NCBI GenBank assembly: GCA_903901425.1
Contig: CAIURC010000008.1
Location: 1 to 44,100, forward strand
DNA length: 44,100 nt
Direction of reading: 5' to 3'
Source of the DNA: an uncultured Spartobacteria bacterium
GTDB lineage: Bacteria > Verrucomicrobiota > Verrucomicrobiia > Chthoniobacterales > Chthoniobacteraceae
Both the position numbers and the translations under genes were made by a program. Below, in pieces: positions 1,489-12,975 of the stretch; the stretch's first letter is position 1; the number at the start of each line of letters is the position of its first letter. Below the pieces are notes generated by a model. It was given only the letters and a program-made list of their open reading frames with translations, was not told the origin of the DNA and ran no database searches.

Positions 1489-1841
1489 CCCCCATGCTGG
1501 TTGCAGCCGCTTCCCTTCCCGGGCTCAGCGCCTGTGATCGGCGAATCACCAATTCCAACATCGCGGTCGTCAACCGTGAGTTTGAACGGGGAGAAAAGGG
1601 GTCCGGCGGGGTCACGCCCAAGGAAGTGGAGTCCGTGCTTGGCCCGCCCAAGTCGGTGACCGTGAAGACCCTTTCCCTTGAGACCCAGAAGAAAGAGGTT
1701 GAGATCGTCCGTTACTATTACGAGCAGGATGGCCAGCTTTTGGAGCTGCACTTCCTCGACAACAAATTGATTTCCCGGATCCCTTCCTTGAACCCGCAAC
1801 AACCGGCAGCTGGAACCAAAACTCCGTCCCAAACCCCATGA
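1476..1841 (+). CDS. Small lipoprotein with BamE/SmpA-like domain, embedded in the nuo operon
   Basis: A 121-residue protein with a short basic start, a hydrophobic stretch and a lipobox ending LSAC, so it should be lipid-anchored at Cys20. The mature part (GVTPKEVESVLGPPKSV, then YYYEQDGQLLELHFLDNKLI) has the pattern of BamE/SmpA/OmlA-like small domains: an amphipathic 'T-x-x-E-V-x-x-x-L-G-x-P' helix followed by beta strands ending in 'F-x-D/N-x-x-L'. The tail is Pro/Gln/Thr-rich. It overlaps nuoD by 13 bases and its stop forms an ATGA with the nuoEF start, so it is very likely co-translated with complex I subunits. ATG 1476 supplies the Arg of the signal peptide; ATG 1494 is an alternative. 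A link to complex I is inferred from position only. Confidence 0.85.
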   Translation: MRSLTPMLVAAASLPGLSACDRRITNSNIAVVNREFERGEKGSGGVTPKEVESVLGPPKSVTVKTLSLETQKKEVEIVRYYYEQDGQLLELHFLDNKLISRIPSLNPQQPAAGTKTPSQTP

Positions 1842-3865
1842 CGATTCCGCCTGATCTTCTCGCCCGGATTGAAGAGGCCATCTCCCATTACCCGGTCTCC
1901 AAACGCAGCGCATCGCTTCCCCTGCTCCATCTCTGGCAGGAACACTTCGGATTTGTTTCCGACGAGGGCGTTTCATGGATCGCCAAAAAGTTGGATCTGG
2001 CGCCTATCAATGTGCTGGAACTGGTGACCTTTTACCCGATGTTCCGGAGGCAGCCTGCGGGCGCCACCCATATCCGGGTCTGCAGAACCCTCTCCTGCTC
2101 CATGGCAGGCAGTTACCAACTGCGGGATGAAATCGCTCGGGTGGCTGGGATCGATATCGACCGCTGGAAAAACGAGTTCTACGGACATCCCCACGGCGAC
2201 TCCTCCAAATCCCACTCTCCGGAGAAGCTGACCGGCCATGCCGTTCACAACTCCGGCCACGGCAACCCGGTGGCAGTGAGCGCCGATGGACGCTTTTCGG
2301 TCGAGTTTGTCGAGTGCTTGGCCAGTTGCGGCTCGGCGCCCGTCGTCATGGTGAACGACCTATTCAAGGAAAACGTGAGCCTGGCGGATGCTCCGAGTCT
2401 TCTAACCCTGAAACGTTCCGATGCCACGCTCCCCAAGGTGCGCCCGCCGCATCCCCGGGAAAAACGGGTGGTTTTCGCCAACATTGACCGGGAAGGCTGG
2501 ACCAACGACATCGAGTGCTATTTGGACCACGGGGGGTACGCCGACCTCAAGAAGGCGCTGAAGATGAAGCCCGAGGAGATTGTCAACGAGGTCAAGGCCA
2601 GCGGCCTCAGGGGCCGCGGCGGCGCCGGCTTTCCGACGGGGGTCAAATGGGGGTTCATCAAACATGGCGGCCCGAAACCGACCTACCTGATCTGCAACGC
2701 CGACGAATCCGAGCCCGGCACGTTCAAAGACCGCTACATCATCCACCAGGACCCCCACCAACTCCTGGAAGGCATGATCATTTCCTGTTACGCCGTCGGC
2801 GCCAAGCTTGCCTATCTCTACATTCGCGGTGAATTCCCCGAAGGCGCCCAGATCCTCGAACGCGCGCTCGCGGAGGCCAGGCGACGCGGTTTCCTTGGGA
2901 AAAACATTCTCGGTTCAGGTTTCGATTGCGAAATCTACGTGCACCGGGGCGCGGGCGCATACATTTGCGGTGAAGAAACCGGCCTGATCGAGTCGCTGGA
3001 GGGCAAACGCGCCTATCCCCGGATCAAGCCCCCGTATTTCCCGGCTGTCCTCGGCCTGTACCAGTGTCCGACCATCGTGAACAACGTCGAAACCCTGTGC
3101 GACGTGAAGCACATTGTCCGGATGGGCGGCGCGGAGTACGCCAAGATCGGGCGCCCAAACAACACCGGCACCCGGATCCTGTGTGTGAGCGGCGACGTTG
3201 TCCGGCCTGGATACTACGAGGTGGAGGTCGGGAGCCTGACCATGGGCGAACTCATCCACGAAGTGTGCGGCGGCCTCCGAGAAGGGCGCTCGCTCAAGGC
3301 GGTTATCCCGGGGGGATCCTCGGCCAAAGTCTTGCGCGCAGGCGAAAAATTCAAGGTCAAGGACCGGGAACTCGCGCTTGAAGACATCCCGATGGATTTC
3401 GACACGCTTGCTGCGTGCGGGTCGATGGCGGGGTCTGGAGGCGTGATCGTCATGGACGACTCTAGGGACATGGTCGAGACCCTCAACAACATCAACGAAT
3501 TCTACGCGCATGAGTCCTGCGGCCAGTGCACACCCTGCCGGGAAGGATCGCTCTGGATGAAAAAAATCACCGACCGACTCATTGCCGGAGGCGGTGTCAG
3601 TTCCGACCCCAAACTTCTCAAAAACGTGGCGGACAATATCGCCGGAAAAACCATCTGCGCCTTTGGGGAAGCGTGCTCCTGGCCCACCCAGAGTTTCCTC
3701 GCGAAATTCAGCGACGAATTCTCGGCACGCGCCGAAAAACCGCTTCCTCCCCCCATGCCTCCGGAGTACACGGCTGACGAACTGGCCTCCGGAAACCCAA
3801 TTCCTGCCGTGCCCGCCCCGCGCCACACTGGCCGCGAGTTCATGGCTCCGGCCGCCACCCGCTAG
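1838..3865 (+). CDS. nuoEF: Fused NADH-quinone oxidoreductase subunits E and F (NuoE-NuoF)
   Basis: A single 675-residue frame carries both electron-input subunits of complex I. Residues 1-190 are NuoE, a thioredoxin-like [2Fe-2S] domain with C82-x4-C87 and C160-x3-C164. Residues about 205-630 are NuoF. There, GRGGAGFPTG near 259-268 binds FMN, GAGAYICGEETG near 371-382 binds NADH, and C561, C564, C567 and C607 hold the [4Fe-4S] cluster. The tail from 633 is Pro-rich. The two NuoE cysteine pairs are 72 residues apart instead of about 35, because of a polar insertion at about 109-146 with six histidines. NuoE-F fusions are known in HoxF and FdsB-type diaphorases; here the fusion sits in a standard complex I operon. 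Translation is coupled to the lipoprotein gene by ATGA. Confidence 0.96.
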   Translation: MTIPPDLLARIEEAISHYPVSKRSASLPLLHLWQEHFGFVSDEGVSWIAKKLDLAPINVLELVTFYPMFRRQPAGATHIRVCRTLSCSMAGSYQLRDEIARVAGIDIDRWKNEFYGHPHGDSSKSHSPEKLTGHAVHNSGHGNPVAVSADGRFSVEFVECLASCGSAPVVMVNDLFKENVSLADAPSLLTLKRSDATLPKVRPPHPREKRVVFANIDREGWTNDIECYLDHGGYADLKKALKMKPEEIVNEVKASGLRGRGGAGFPTGVKWGFIKHGGPKPTYLICNADESEPGTFKDRYIIHQDPHQLLEGMIISCYAVGAKLAYLYIRGEFPEGAQILERALAEARRRGFLGKNILGSGFDCEIYVHRGAGAYICGEETGLIESLEGKRAYPRIKPPYFPAVLGLYQCPTIVNNVETLCDVKHIVRMGGAEYAKIGRPNNTGTRILCVSGDVVRPGYYEVEVGSLTMGELIHEVCGGLREGRSLKAVIPGGSSAKVLRAGEKFKVKDRELALEDIPMDFDTLAACGSMAGSGGVIVMDDSRDMVETLNNINEFYAHESCGQCTPCREGSLWMKKITDRLIAGGGVSSDPKLLKNVADNIAGKTICAFGEACSWPTQSFLAKFSDEFSARAEKPLPPPMPPEYTADELASGNPIPAVPAPRHTGREFMAPAATR

Positions 3866-7730: not shown

Positions 7731-8054
7731 ATGAGCGTCACCCTCAATCACTACCTCTTTGCCAGCGGCATCTTGTTTGCCATCGGCTTCTCCGGAGTGC
7801 TGCTCCGGCGGAACATCCTCACCATCTTCATGTGCCTGGAGTTGATGCTCAACGCTGCGAACCTCTCGCTTGTGGCGTTTTCGCGCTTCAATGTTTCGCC
7901 GACGGGACTCCCCAACTACAACGCCCAGATCCTCGTGTTCTTCATCATCACCGTGGCAGCCGCGGAGGTCGCCGTGGGTCTGGCGATCATTGTCTCCCTG
8001 TTCAGGGCGCGGCAGACCACTCACGTCGAGGACGTCAACAGCCTCAAGTTCTAA
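7731..8054 (+). CDS. nuoK: NADH-quinone oxidoreductase subunit K (NuoK, ND4L)
   Basis: A 107-residue, three-helix membrane subunit of the proton channel next to NuoJ and NuoN. Both membrane glutamates important in the family are present: one in [16 protein letters not shown] and one in [18 protein letters not shown]. The start codon immediately follows the nuoJ stop with no spacer, so translation is probably coupled. Confidence 0.96.
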
Positions 8055-8058
8055 CCTC

Positions 8059-9873
8059 ATGGACCCGAAACTTCCTTGGTTTGTTCTCCTCTGCCCGCTG
8101 CTCAGCGCAGCCCTGATCCAACTGGTTCTCCGCAGAAAACACTCCCTTGCCGCCGGTATTTCCGTCCTCTCTGCCTTTGCCGGCCTCCTTGCCGCCGTTG
8201 GGATCTGGTTTTCGGGAATGCCCCCTGCCCCCCTCCAAATCCCGTGGATTCAAGTCGGCGACGCGCTCCAAGTTCCCATCGGCCTCCTGATTGATCCCCT
8301 GAGCAAGATCATGCTTCTGGTGGTCACCGGAGTGGGTGCGCTGGTCCACCTGTATTCCCTGGTCTACATGGCGGGCGACGAATCCAAGGGCCGGTTTTTC
8401 GGCAATCTCTCCCTGTTCATGTTCTCGATGCTCGGCATCGTTCTGGCGGACAACTTCGCGATGATGTTCATCTTCTGGGAACTGGTGGGGGTGAGCAGTT
8501 ACCTCCTCATCGGCCATTGGTTCACCAAGGACTCTGCTGCGGCCGCCGCCAACAAAGCGTTTCTCACCAACAGGATCGGCGACTTCGGGTTCATGCTCGG
8601 CATCTTGCTGATCTGGAGCGCCACCGGCACCGTGGTTTTCGGTGAGATCGCAACCAAGTCCGCAGCGATTCCTGCCTCCCTCCTCACCGCGGGTGTGCTT
8701 CTGGTTTTCTGTGGCGCGGTCGGCAAAAGCGCCCAACTTCCACTCCACGTCTGGCTCCCGGATGCGATGGAAGGGCCGACCCCGGTTTCTGCACTGATCC
8801 ATGCCGCCACGATGGTGGCAGCCGGTGTGTACATGCTCGCGCGGATCTCGTTCCTCGTCACACTGAGCCCTGCGGCACAGACCGTGATTGCTTGGGTCGG
8901 CATCCTTACGGCCGTGTTTGCGGCTCTGCTGGCCACCCAGCAGGACGACATCAAGCGGATCCTCGCGTACTCGACCCTCTCCCAACTGGGATACATGGTC
9001 TCCGCCATCGGCCTGGCCGCCCCGGGGGCCGCCATGTTCCACCTCTTCACCCATGCATTTTTCAAGGCGCTCCTGTTCTTGGGAGCGGGCGCAGTCATCC
9101 ACGGGTTGCACCACGAACAGGACATCTGGCGCATGGGCGGATTGTCCAAGCGGATGCCCCTCACGTTCCTGACGTTCGCGCTCGGCTATCTTGCGCTCAT
9201 TGGTTGCCCCGGACTGAGCGGGTTCTTCTCCAAGGACCTCATCCTCGCCGCCGCGTGGCAGTACAACAAGGCCCTCTTCGGTCTGGGCATCCTGACCGCC
9301 GGTCTTACCGCCTTCTACATGACCCGCTTGTTTGTGGTCGCGTTCCTCGGGACACCCCGGTCTGAGTCCGCTGCCCACGGGCACGATGGGCCCTTGGCCA
9401 TGACGCTTCCTCTGCTGGTCTTGGCGGTTCCTTCCGTTGCCGCCGGTTGGCCCGCGGTACAGAACGCAGCCATGGGTGCCTCTTACGCGGCTGCGCTCCA
9501 CCACCTCCACGAGTCCGCCTCCAACATCGTGATCATTCTCGCAACGGGCGCGTTCCTCGGCGGAGCCGGTTTGAGCGCCCTGATTTATTCCAGGGCGACC
9601 CGGGACCCGATTTCAATCCCACCGCTGAGATCCAAACTTTACGTCGACGAAATCTACGCGGCCCTCATTGCAGCCACTCAGGAACTTGGAGCCCAAATGG
9701 CCTCGTGGTTTGACCGCTGGATACTGGATGGCCTGATTGTGCGCGGCCTGAGCGGCCTGACTTGGGGGTTCGGATACACGCTGCGCTTCCTCCAAGTGGG
9801 CAACCTCCAAGCCTACTCCTTCCTTTTCGGTCTGGGTGTCGTGGCCCTGATTTATCTGGCCGTGCTTCGCTGA
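8059..9873 (+). CDS. nuoL: NADH-quinone oxidoreductase subunit L (NuoL, ND5)
   Basis: A 604-residue antiporter-like proton pump subunit at the tip of the membrane arm. Its C-terminal part should form the lateral helix. The TM5 glutamate is in FIFWELVGVSSYLLIGHW. The TM7 lysine is in GKSAQLPLHVWLPDAMEGPT, the TM8 histidine in SALIHAATMVAAG, and the TM12 lysine in GFFSKDLI. I chose ATG 8059, four bases after the nuoK stop. The frame is open further upstream, but that part lies inside nuoK and lacks the start of the first NuoL helix. Confidence 0.96.
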   Translation: MDPKLPWFVLLCPLLSAALIQLVLRRKHSLAAGISVLSAFAGLLAAVGIWFSGMPPAPLQIPWIQVGDALQVPIGLLIDPLSKIMLLVVTGVGALVHLYSLVYMAGDESKGRFFGNLSLFMFSMLGIVLADNFAMMFIFWELVGVSSYLLIGHWFTKDSAAAAANKAFLTNRIGDFGFMLGILLIWSATGTVVFGEIATKSAAIPASLLTAGVLLVFCGAVGKSAQLPLHVWLPDAMEGPTPVSALIHAATMVAAGVYMLARISFLVTLSPAAQTVIAWVGILTAVFAALLATQQDDIKRILAYSTLSQLGYMVSAIGLAAPGAAMFHLFTHAFFKALLFLGAGAVIHGLHHEQDIWRMGGLSKRMPLTFLTFALGYLALIGCPGLSGFFSKDLILAAAWQYNKALFGLGILTAGLTAFYMTRLFVVAFLGTPRSESAAHGHDGPLAMTLPLLVLAVPSVAAGWPAVQNAAMGASYAAALHHLHESASNIVIILATGAFLGGAGLSALIYSRATRDPISIPPLRSKLYVDEIYAALIAATQELGAQMASWFDRWILDGLIVRGLSGLTWGFGYTLRFLQVGNLQAYSFLFGLGVVALIYLAVLR

Positions 9874-9930: not shown

Positions 9931-11418
9931 GTGCTTAACCTTCTCCTCTTTCTCCCTCTGCTGGCCGCAACCGCAATTGGTTTTGGCTCCCCTGCCCGCA
10001 AGACCGCGATTGCCGCCTCTTTTGGGATGTTGGCCACGGCATTGGCGCTCCTGTTTCAGTACGACCGTGGCAATCCGGGGTTCCAGTTCGTCTCGTCAGT
10101 TTCCGTGCTGCCCGCATGGGACCTGAAATACCTCCTTGCCGCCGATGGATTGAGCCTCCTTCTGCTCCTGCTGACCGCGGCGGTCACCCTGAGCGCGGTC
10201 TGGGTGAGCCCCACCGACCCGGTACGGCCCCGCCTTTTTTACGCCAGCCTTCTTCTGATCTCGGCCGGGGCCGTGGGCGCATTTGCCTCGCAGGATCTTT
10301 TCTTCTTCTACGCGTTCCATGAACTTGCGCTGATCCCGACCTTCCTGCTTCTCGGGATCTGGGGCACCGGGGAACGTCACACAGCGGCATGGAAAATCAC
10401 CATTTATCTGGCCGTGGGCAGCTTCATTCTGCTGATCGGACTGGTGGACCTCTACCATGCGCTTCCTTCGGAGTTCAGGACGTTTGACATGATCAAGCTC
10501 CAGAAGCTCGCCACCCAGCAGGTGATCCCGGCGGCTGCGCAGGCCCGCCCCTATCTCTTCCTTCTGGTGGGCTTTGGGATTCTGGTTTCGCTGTTTCCTT
10601 TCCACACTTGGGCTCCAGATGCCTACGCATCTGCCCCGACCCCTGCTGCGATGCTCCATGCAGGCGTCCTCAAGAAGTTCGGTCTTTATGGCCTGATCCG
10701 TGTGGCGATTCCCCTGCTGCCCGCCGGGGCTGAGCATTGGGCATGGCTTCTCCTCATCCTGCTCGTTGGGAATGTGCTCTACGTGGGCTTGGTCACCATC
10801 GCCCAGAAACGCCTCGACCAACTCCTGGGTTTCTCCAGCGTCATGCACATGGGCTACATTTTTCTCGGCATCGCGGCCGCGAACTCCATCGGCCTGAGTG
10901 GCGCCTGCCTGCTGATGTTCGCCCACGGTCTTTCCATCGCTGCGTTGTTTGCCCTTTGCGGATACCTCCGTTCCCTAAAACCCGGCCTTTCGCTGGACGG
11001 ATTCGGTGGCTTGGGCCGTACCGCACCTTTCCTCGGAGCCACCTTCGGACTCGCGGCTTTTGCCTCCATCGGGCTTCCCGGTTTCGGCAATTTCGCGAGT
11101 GAAATGCTGGTGTTTTTCGGGGCCTTCAAACCGGCGGCGCCCGCTGGGTCGCAGCTCCCGTTCCAGATCGCCACTGGATGCGCGATCTGGGGGGTGGTGA
11201 TTTCCGCTGTCTATATGCTTCGGGCTTACCGTTCCGTCTTTCTGGGGCCTGTTACCCTGCCTCCCACCGAGGAAACCAAAGCGTGGGCCGCTGCCGCACT
11301 GCAACGGCTCCGCCTCCCGCTGGTCCTTCTGCTCGGGCTCTTGCTTTACGCGGGGTTTGTCCCCGGAAACCTCCTCGCCTTTGTAAAACCCAGCATCGAA
11401 GCCATGCTTCCGCGGTAA
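9931..11418 (+). CDS. nuoM: NADH-quinone oxidoreductase subunit M (NuoM, ND4), with altered TM7
   Basis: A 495-residue antiporter-like proton pump subunit. It starts with GTG 9931, the first usable start after the nuoL stop, with a weak GAGG 11 bases upstream. The TM5 glutamate is present in AFHELALIPTFLLLGIWG and the TM8 lysine in HAGVLKKFGLYGL. The position of the conserved TM7 lysine (five residues before the PxHxW motif; Lys234 in E. coli) reads Leu218, in GILVSLFPFHTWAPDAY. The usual WLPDAH also reads WAPDAY. The remaining family features and the length are normal and the frame is intact, so this looks like a real variant rather than a broken gene. Confidence 0.95.
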   Translation: MLNLLLFLPLLAATAIGFGSPARKTAIAASFGMLATALALLFQYDRGNPGFQFVSSVSVLPAWDLKYLLAADGLSLLLLLLTAAVTLSAVWVSPTDPVRPRLFYASLLLISAGAVGAFASQDLFFFYAFHELALIPTFLLLGIWGTGERHTAAWKITIYLAVGSFILLIGLVDLYHALPSEFRTFDMIKLQKLATQQVIPAAAQARPYLFLLVGFGILVSLFPFHTWAPDAYASAPTPAAMLHAGVLKKFGLYGLIRVAIPLLPAGAEHWAWLLLILLVGNVLYVGLVTIAQKRLDQLLGFSSVMHMGYIFLGIAAANSIGLSGACLLMFAHGLSIAALFALCGYLRSLKPGLSLDGFGGLGRTAPFLGATFGLAAFASIGLPGFGNFASEMLVFFGAFKPAAPAGSQLPFQIATGCAIWGVVISAVYMLRAYRSVFLGPVTLPPTEETKAWAAAALQRLRLPLVLLLGLLLYAGFVPGNLLAFVKPSIEAMLPR

Positions 11419-11469: not shown

Positions 11470-12975
11470 ATGCCGCACATCTTTGCTCCCCTTACTCTGG
11501 AAATTATCGTCCTGATCCTGGGCGTCTTCCTTCTTCTTGCCGAATCGCTGGCCAAGTCCGGTGACCGGTCCTGGATGGGACGCTGGGGTGTTGCCGTGCT
11601 GGCGATCGTGTTTGGATGGTCTTTCTTCACCACTGGCGACTCGGGCTCCGTGTTCTATTCGGCGGATTCCACCGCGCTGTTTTTCAAACGCATTGCCCTG
11701 CTCTCCACAATCGGGATTCTGGTGATGGCGCTTGAGTTCCAGACCGTGCTCCAACGCTTCATCCCAGGAGACGGCAAAGGATCCGGCACGGGCGAGTTTT
11801 TTGCGCTCCCGGTATTCACCTGCGCGGGTCTGATGTTTATGGCGTCGGCCATCGATTTTCTCCTCATTTTTGTGGCTCTGGAGCTCTCCACCATCAGCTT
11901 TTACATTTTGGTGGCCTACATGCGCCGCCAGAACGCCTCCTTGGAAGCCGGGGTCAAGTACCTGATCCTGGGTGCACTTGGCACAGGTTTCCTTGTCTAT
12001 GGGATCACTTGGGTGTTCGGACTGACGGGTGAGACGCAGCTTGCGAGGATCGCTCAGGCACTTCCGCTTCAGCTTGCCCCAGGAGGCCGTCTCCACGGCT
12101 CAGAAACGGCCATCCTTTTTGCCGTTGGGCTCCTGCTGGTCGCTCTCGGATTCAAGGTGGCTGCCGCCCCCTTCCAGCTCTGGGTGCCGGACGTCTACCA
12201 GGGCGCTCCCACCCCGGTGACCGCTTTTCTTTCGGTCGGTTCCAAGGCAGCCGGATTCATTGTGCTTCTCCGCGTCCTTGAGCCTTTTGTCTCCCAACCT
12301 GTCCTCGGGCCGAAACTGGTCGGCATCCTGAACGTTTTAGCCATTCTCAGTCTGGCGTATGGCAGTCTTGCAGCCCTGCCTCAGGACAACCTCAAAAGAC
12401 TTCTGGCTTACTCCAGCATCGGGCATGCCGGCTACCTGCTGGTTTCTCTGGCCAGCCTCAACCCGGCTGCGCCTGACTTTGCAGGCGCCACCCGGACCAT
12501 TGGATTCTATCTGGTGGGATACCTTCTGATGACGCTTCTGGCGTTTCTGGTTCTGACCATTGTCTCCTCGCAATCCCGAGGCGATGACATCGCCCATTTC
12601 AACGGGCTCTCCAAGCGGTCGCCGTTTCTGGCATTCGCGATGGTGGTCGCCATGGCTTCCCTTGCTGGAATCCCCCTCACCGTGGGGTTCTACGGCAAAT
12701 TCATGGTTTTCTCAGCGGCAGTCGCTGCTCAGAAGTTCCTTCTGGTCGGCATCGGGATCGTCAGCGTTGCCGCCGGGTTCTATTTTTACTTCCGGGTCAT
12801 TGCCGCGATGTTTTGGAGGGAACCCGGAGAGCAGTCCCCGGTTGTTGTCTCGGGCCTTTCCAAACTTGCGGTGGCCACACTGGTCGCTGGAATCCTGCTG
12901 CTGGGGATTTTTCCGGGGCCCGTTCTGAATTCAATCAAGGTGCGGAACGAACCCGCCACCGCATCGCTGCGTTGA
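11470..12975 (+). CDS. nuoN: NADH-quinone oxidoreductase subunit N (NuoN, ND2)
   Basis: A 501-residue antiporter-like proton pump subunit and the last gene of the complex I operon. Key charged residues are all present: the TM5 glutamate in FVALELSTISFYILVA, the TM7 lysine in GFKVAAAPFQLWVPDVYQGAPTP, the TM8 lysine in SVGSKAAGF, and the TM12 lysine in VGFYGKFMVFSAA. It follows nuoM after 51 bases. No intrinsic terminator is visible behind it; the thiC promoter follows directly. Confidence 0.96.
   Translation: MPHIFAPLTLEIIVLILGVFLLLAESLAKSGDRSWMGRWGVAVLAIVFGWSFFTTGDSGSVFYSADSTALFFKRIALLSTIGILVMALEFQTVLQRFIPGDGKGSGTGEFFALPVFTCAGLMFMASAIDFLLIFVALELSTISFYILVAYMRRQNASLEAGVKYLILGALGTGFLVYGITWVFGLTGETQLARIAQALPLQLAPGGRLHGSETAILFAVGLLLVALGFKVAAAPFQLWVPDVYQGAPTPVTAFLSVGSKAAGFIVLLRVLEPFVSQPVLGPKLVGILNVLAILSLAYGSLAALPQDNLKRLLAYSSIGHAGYLLVSLASLNPAAPDFAGATRTIGFYLVGYLLMTLLAFLVLTIVSSQSRGDDIAHFNGLSKRSPFLAFAMVVAMASLAGIPLTVGFYGKFMVFSAAVAAQKFLLVGIGIVSVAAGFYFYFRVIAAMFWREPGEQSPVVVSGLSKLAVATLVAGILLLGIFPGPVLNSIKVRNEPATASLR

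Follow-up and report, generated by a model that had tools for sequence, protein, structure and literature searches.

The window analysed here, a stretch of 44,100 nucleotides, carries a run of nuo genes on the + strand. Between bases 256 and 12975 the genes were found in the order nuoD, a small ORF, fused nuoEF, nuoG, nuoH, nuoI, nuoJ, nuoK, nuoL, nuoM and nuoN. The small ORF (1476-1841) between nuoD and nuoEF is a frame of 121 amino acids with a start that looked lipoprotein-like by eye, and NuoE and NuoF are fused in a single frame of 675 aa at 1838-3865 (2Fe-2S_thioredx plus Complex1_51K). One copy each of nuoA and nuoB was found on other contigs of the same genome and, judged from these together with the nuo genes of the window, the complex I of the organism is probably complete. 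The genes from nuoK to nuoN are as follows.

7731-8054, + strand: nuoK, both conserved Glu present (profile)
8059-9873, + strand: nuoL, 604 aa, with canonical K229, H254 and K399 (E. coli alignment, profile)
9931-11418, + strand: nuoM, Leu-type, 495 aa, GTG start (TIGR01972, PF00361, fold match)
11470-12975, + strand: nuoN, 501 aa, with canonical E133, K217, K247 and K395 (profile)

The assignment of the 495-aa protein to the NuoM family, which provides one of three proton-pumping subunits in respiratory complex I, is sound. It scored 382.7 bits against TIGR01972 NDH_I_M (cut-off 263.8) and was also matched by the PF00361 profile, and its gene lies in the order nuoL-nuoM-nuoN with nuoH to nuoK upstream. 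An AlphaFold2 model (mean pLDDT 91.9) had the antiporter-like helical fold with a broken TM7 and matched E. coli NuoM (3rko_C) with a Z-score of 51.8 and 2.0 Å over 479 residues. The protein is one of six Proton_antipo_M matches in its own genome, where a search with P0001 gave one NuoM-like match, the others being weak matches to NuoL, NuoN and a protein on contig 26. The genome holds a single NuoM, and not the two NuoM genes in one operon that are typical of the 2M complex I.

Leucine 218 and the surrounding residues

In the initial annotation it was claimed that Leu218 (10582-10584) replaces the TM7 lysine, Lys234 in E. coli, and that the WLPDAH motif reads WAPDAY. Both observations held. 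The codon is CTG, and in an alignment without gaps around the site Leu218 lies opposite Lys234 of E. coli NuoM (reference taken from NC_000913.3). No lysine that could fill the site was found in TM7 of the window protein; all basic residues between 181 and 260 are R183, K189, K192, R206, K248, K249 and R257. The broken TM7 was kept in the model, with DSSP helices at 205-218 and 228-234 and Leu218 as the last residue before the break. Since the alignment is ungapped, TM7 has no lysine, and the broken helix and the fold are kept, the leucine truly lies at the lysine position. The TM7 lysine paired with the TM5 glutamate, as known from the canonical pump module, is missing. The residues discussed below are listed here.

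10318-10323, + strand: His130-Glu131, a new His beside the conserved TM5 ion-pair Glu (E. coli W143-E144; alignments)
10582-10584, + strand: Leu218 (CTG) for the TM7 ion-pair lysine, E. coli K234 (codon, alignments)
10588-10590, + strand: Ser220 (E. coli P236), changes jointly with 234 and 244 (alignments)
10612-10614, + strand: Ala228 for the N-side gate leucine (E. coli L244, P. denitrificans L242; alignments)
10624-10626, + strand: Tyr232 for the channel histidine (E. coli H248; alignments)
10657-10659, + strand: His243, new TM8 histidine (E. coli L259; alignments)
10672-10674, + strand: Lys248, new TM8 lysine (E. coli L264), candidate substitute for K234 (alignments)
10675-10677, + strand: Lys249, canonical TM8 lysine (E. 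coli K265; alignments)
10816-10818, + strand: Asp296 for Lys312 of the DxKR motif, N-side start of TM10 (alignments, model)
11101-11103, + strand: Glu391, TM12 terminal glutamate (E. coli E407), kept (alignment)

Canonical NuoM/Nqo13/ND4 (E. coli 3RKO, P. denitrificans 8QBY, T. thermophilus 4HE8) and the window protein share the family model, the fold (Z about 51-53), the operon place between nuoL and nuoN, the TM5 Glu, the TM8 Lys, the His pair and the TM12 Glu. E131, K249, E391 and the bridging H306 and H332 are all present in the window NuoM. Retention of the TM5 Glu and TM8 Lys had been noted from the start, as had the TM7 lysines of NuoL (K229) and NuoN (K217) in the same operon, and these points were borne out. 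The window protein differs from canonical NuoM, in E. coli numbering, by K234 to Leu, P236 to Ser, L244 to Ala, H248 to Tyr and K312 to Asp, and by the new H143, H259 and K264. The changes of Leu244 to Ala228, His248 to Tyr232 and Lys312 to Asp296, together with the new H130 and H243, go beyond the initial annotation. Tyr248 alone is not distinctive, being carried by the Lys-type NuoM copies of 2M complexes as well.

Three of these positions have been mutated in P. denitrificans Nqo13, where K232Q, L242A and H246F are each stated in an excerpt of PMC9802314 to abolish NADH:UQ activity. The corresponding residues (E. coli 234, 244 and 248) are Leu, Ala and Tyr in the window, i.e. naturally changed at all three. 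Leu214 of T. thermophilus is described as an N-side gate in part of PMC11496545 and, judged from the numbering offset, would match E. coli 244. The new TM8 His243 resembles the His(TM8) of ND5, the role of which is treated in a section of PMC10212512; NuoL, unlike the window NuoM, retains its TM7 Lys, and the His registers agree only when TM8 is aligned from its C-terminal end.

The lysine of the DxKR motif varied within the class. At position 312 the 146 window-type cores described below had Asp (103), Lys (36), Thr (5), Gly (1) or a gap (1); the window clade has Asp, the Methylacidiphilum-like rows have Thr or Gly, and the rest of the class has Lys. The change from Lys312 to Asp in the window clade is a charge reversal near the channel mouth.

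Distribution and descent of Leu-type NuoM

NuoM sequences were taken from relatives (36 of 38 genomes matched), from 80 genome contigs (the best 80 of 502 relatives), from a sample of the phylum (84 of 240 genomes, E 1e-35) and, for other phyla, from plasmid records, with Rhodothermota, Planctomycetota, Acidobacteriota and Chlorobiota left out. After identical cores were dropped, 179 distinct NuoM cores were obtained: 146 with Leu234-Lys264-Lys265, three with Leu-Lys-Gln, six with Leu-Met-Lys, 23 with Lys234 and one distant paralogue with Asn at 234 (L184 2157), which was grouped with NuoM by BLAST and belongs to neither type. L185 was omitted because TM7 lies outside its coverage, and five second-copy places (G199:C55, G153:C54, G134:C1:921012, G194:C166 and G047:C25:77226) lie outside the sample.

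The alignment of NuoM from related genomes, which had been suggested as a check in the initial annotation, gave leucine in the window-type rows without exception. All 146 distinct Verrucomicrobiae-type cores had Leu234, as did 21 of 21 further rows of the class, all of window type. Ala244, Tyr248, His259, Lys264 and Lys265 were likewise each fixed in the 146 cores and the 21 rows. His143 and Glu144 were each found in 145 of the cores, with one gap, and E144, H322, H348 and E407 were kept. Median pairwise identity in the window-type clade was about 50%. The Leu-type is far beyond chance or error and is a state of the whole subfamily; the loss of the lysine is real, but its placement in one NuoM was too narrow. 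A sequencing error, a misalignment or a shifted lysine is refuted by this fixation, by the two base changes that separate CTG from a Lys codon and by the absence of lysine from TM7. A recent loss or one in a single genome was rejected on the relatives, the genome contigs and the phylum sample. A degenerate or pseudogenised NuoM was also rejected, the frames being open and 63 of 509 E. coli-numbered columns being invariant in 38 window-type rows of the tree. At loci with window-type NuoM, K229 of NuoL was present in 129 of 129 lettered rows (11 gaps) and K217 of NuoN in 136 of 140, the remainder being two X, one N and one R in ORF pieces or masked stretches.

Leu-type NuoM was also found outside the window clade. 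The NuoMs of Bacteroides finegoldii, Phocaeicola massiliensis and Prevotella nigrescens (three of three) have Leu234, Ser244, His259 and Met264, and thus share with the window the leucine, small residues at 236 and 244 and the new TM8 histidine. They differ in retaining His248, in having Met264 and no extra lysine, and in Tyr143; B. finegoldii NuoM was about 37% identical to the window protein across an aligned 67%. The three Leu-Lys-Gln cores (L190, L177 and L194, from one family elsewhere in the phylum; Leu234, Lys264 and Gln265 in 3/3) have lost both canonical lysines and keep Lys264 alone, and their His348 is Ser. The NuoM of L191 has Leu234 together with His263.

Chadwick et al. (2018) reportedly described complexes with two NuoM (2M) in Nitrospira and elsewhere. 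The 2M complex I is also mentioned in the available part of PMC9040806. In verrucomicrobial 2M complexes, one NuoM copy of the pair is Leu-type like the window protein (Leu234, Gly236, Ala244 and Lys150 in 20 of 20), with its new lysine in TM5 (150) and not in TM8 (264). The partner copies have Lys234 (18 of 18, one of them a fragment), and the gene order at two long loci was nuoL, Lys-type NuoM, Leu-type NuoM, nuoN.

A tree was built from 68 NuoMs with the trait columns taken out and the window-type rows thinned to less than 66% mutual identity. A single branch separated Leu-types from Lys-types with a support of 100/99. Positions 236 and 244 changed once each at the same split as 234, and K264 arose once. 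K234L, P236 to S/A/G and L244 (the gate) to A/S were inseparable in the sample. When rooted with NuoN and Mrp outgroups, the Leu-type formed a clade (support 90/88), and the outgroup state was Lys. A single loss of the TM7 lysine is thus favoured, though it is not certain. The two NuoMs of verrucomicrobial 2M complexes (L235-L249, L253, L179 and L180) fell on opposite sides of the tree and are of separate descent, which speaks against their origin by simple tandem duplication within this lineage.

Every sampled Leu-type lineage had gained a buried basic residue close to the site, namely K264 (mostly with H143 and H259), H259, H263 or K150. None of 40 Lys-type rows had a basic residue at 143, 150, 259 or 264 (one gap at 143). 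Basic gains fixed in Verrucomicrobiae at columns uncharged in the Lys-type numbered three of 359 (143, 259 and 264), all beside the TM5 Glu or TM8 Lys, the site having been drawn after the fact.

Possible working of the Leu-type module

According to an extract of PMC10212512, a Lys(TM7)-Glu(TM5) pair is present in each antiporter-like subunit, and this pair is central to the coupling models in the parts of PMC10212512, PMC5938582 and PMC11496545 at hand. From these models and the activity losses of the Paracoccus mutants it follows that the Leu-type does the job assigned to the TM7 lysine by other means, or not at all.

The reading to which we lean, with modest confidence, is that the protein belongs to an old NuoM subfamily in which the ion-pair base has moved to TM8 (or TM5) and the input channel has been rebuilt, and that it still translocates protons. 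In this view a single event would have removed the TM7 lysine together with Pro236 and Leu244, the gate residue on the N-side, and the base pairing with the TM5 glutamate would have been re-supplied by a neighbouring helix. In Verrucomicrobiae the likeliest substitute would be TM8 Lys248 (E. coli 264), which immediately precedes the central Lys249, and the new His130 and His243 may assist it. Switching would then depend on a Glu(TM5)-Lys(TM8) pair, with a rebuilt gate at the input, and NuoM would remain an antiporter-like module that translocates protons. We infer pumping by the subunit, with Lys248 filling the space of Lys234 and paired with Glu131. What favours a relocated base on a rebuilt channel is the retention of the central and terminal residues together with the fixation of the basic gains beside the site. 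A proton-translocating role is proposed from the retained TM5 Glu, central TM8 Lys, two bridging His and TM12 Glu. The relocation is also in line with the canonical state of NuoL and NuoN and with a predicted fold that matches the NuoM of E. coli, Paracoccus and Thermus.

The extra lysine of VLKKFG had been named in the initial annotation as a possible substitute, the alternative there being a subunit with another way of pumping. For the window clade this proposal gained support, as Lys248 is invariant in the 146 cores and 21 rows and is retained in the Leu-Lys-Gln type despite the loss of K265. As a universal substitute K264 was rejected: Bacteroidota and 2M Leu-type copies manage without it, and L191 has only a His at 263, which counts against the relocation. 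The sites of the new basic residues were picked out after the fact and, since K264 was fixed by one event in the tree, covariation cannot prove the pairing.

It is possible but rather unlikely that Leu-type NuoM is a passive lateral relay without a pumping cycle of its own, in which case about three and not four protons would be moved per NADH, suiting a menaquinone chain. The inactive Paracoccus mutants agree with such a relay, the window being changed at all three positions. Futalosine-type menaquinone genes were present in the genome of the organism (PF02621, two matches over cut-off), where a profile search for MenD and UbiG gave no match over cut-off. Menaquinone yields less free energy, according to a passage of PMC5938582, and this setting adds some weight to the relay. 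However, the pumping residues E144, K265, H322, H348 and E407 have been conserved, although a dead module would have no use for them, and the new basic residues are strictly conserved. Lys-type NuoM is also found in the menaquinone users Thermus and mycobacteria, menaquinone being the quinone type of the latter.

The differing new residues of the Leu-type lineages (K264, H259, H263 and K150), set against the joint change of 234, 236 and 244 in all of them, could be due to a hydrated site round the TM5 Glu, tuned by P236S/A/G, L244A/S and the new His, in which the TM7 lysine has no single replacement and K264 would be one of several local solutions. For Nqo13, the replacement of His by water networks is proposed in an excerpt of PMC9802314. 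We consider such a site unlikely, since the new residue is invariant within each lineage, suggesting a specific role. A specialisation of the Leu-type for the transport of sodium or for sodium/proton antiport, and not for protons, is highly improbable, since every residue of the proton path is retained. The reported Na+/H+ exchange by complex I of Rhodothermus marinus was counted in favour of sodium.

No report of a NuoM without the TM7 Lys was found in the open-licence PMC literature, which was the scope of the search. Tentatively, complex I may have evolved a NuoM of another, separate kind that lacks the TM7 lysine switch; this Leu-type is fixed in Verrucomicrobiae and the sampled Bacteroidales, is paired with a normal NuoM in 2M complexes and would have regained a base at 143/259/264, 259, 263 or 150. 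Coupling would then need no Glu(TM5)-Lys(TM7) pair, and the stoichiometry may differ. Removal of the TM7 lysine charge kills the Paracoccus enzyme, as given in the excerpt of PMC9802314. The large natural Leu-type group raises the question of whether the TM7 lysine itself is needed or any base near the TM5 glutamate, and this can be tested in existing organisms, cultured Bacteroides included. The Leu-type lineages, a whole bacterial class and some gut bacteria, are natural experiments on how the pump works.
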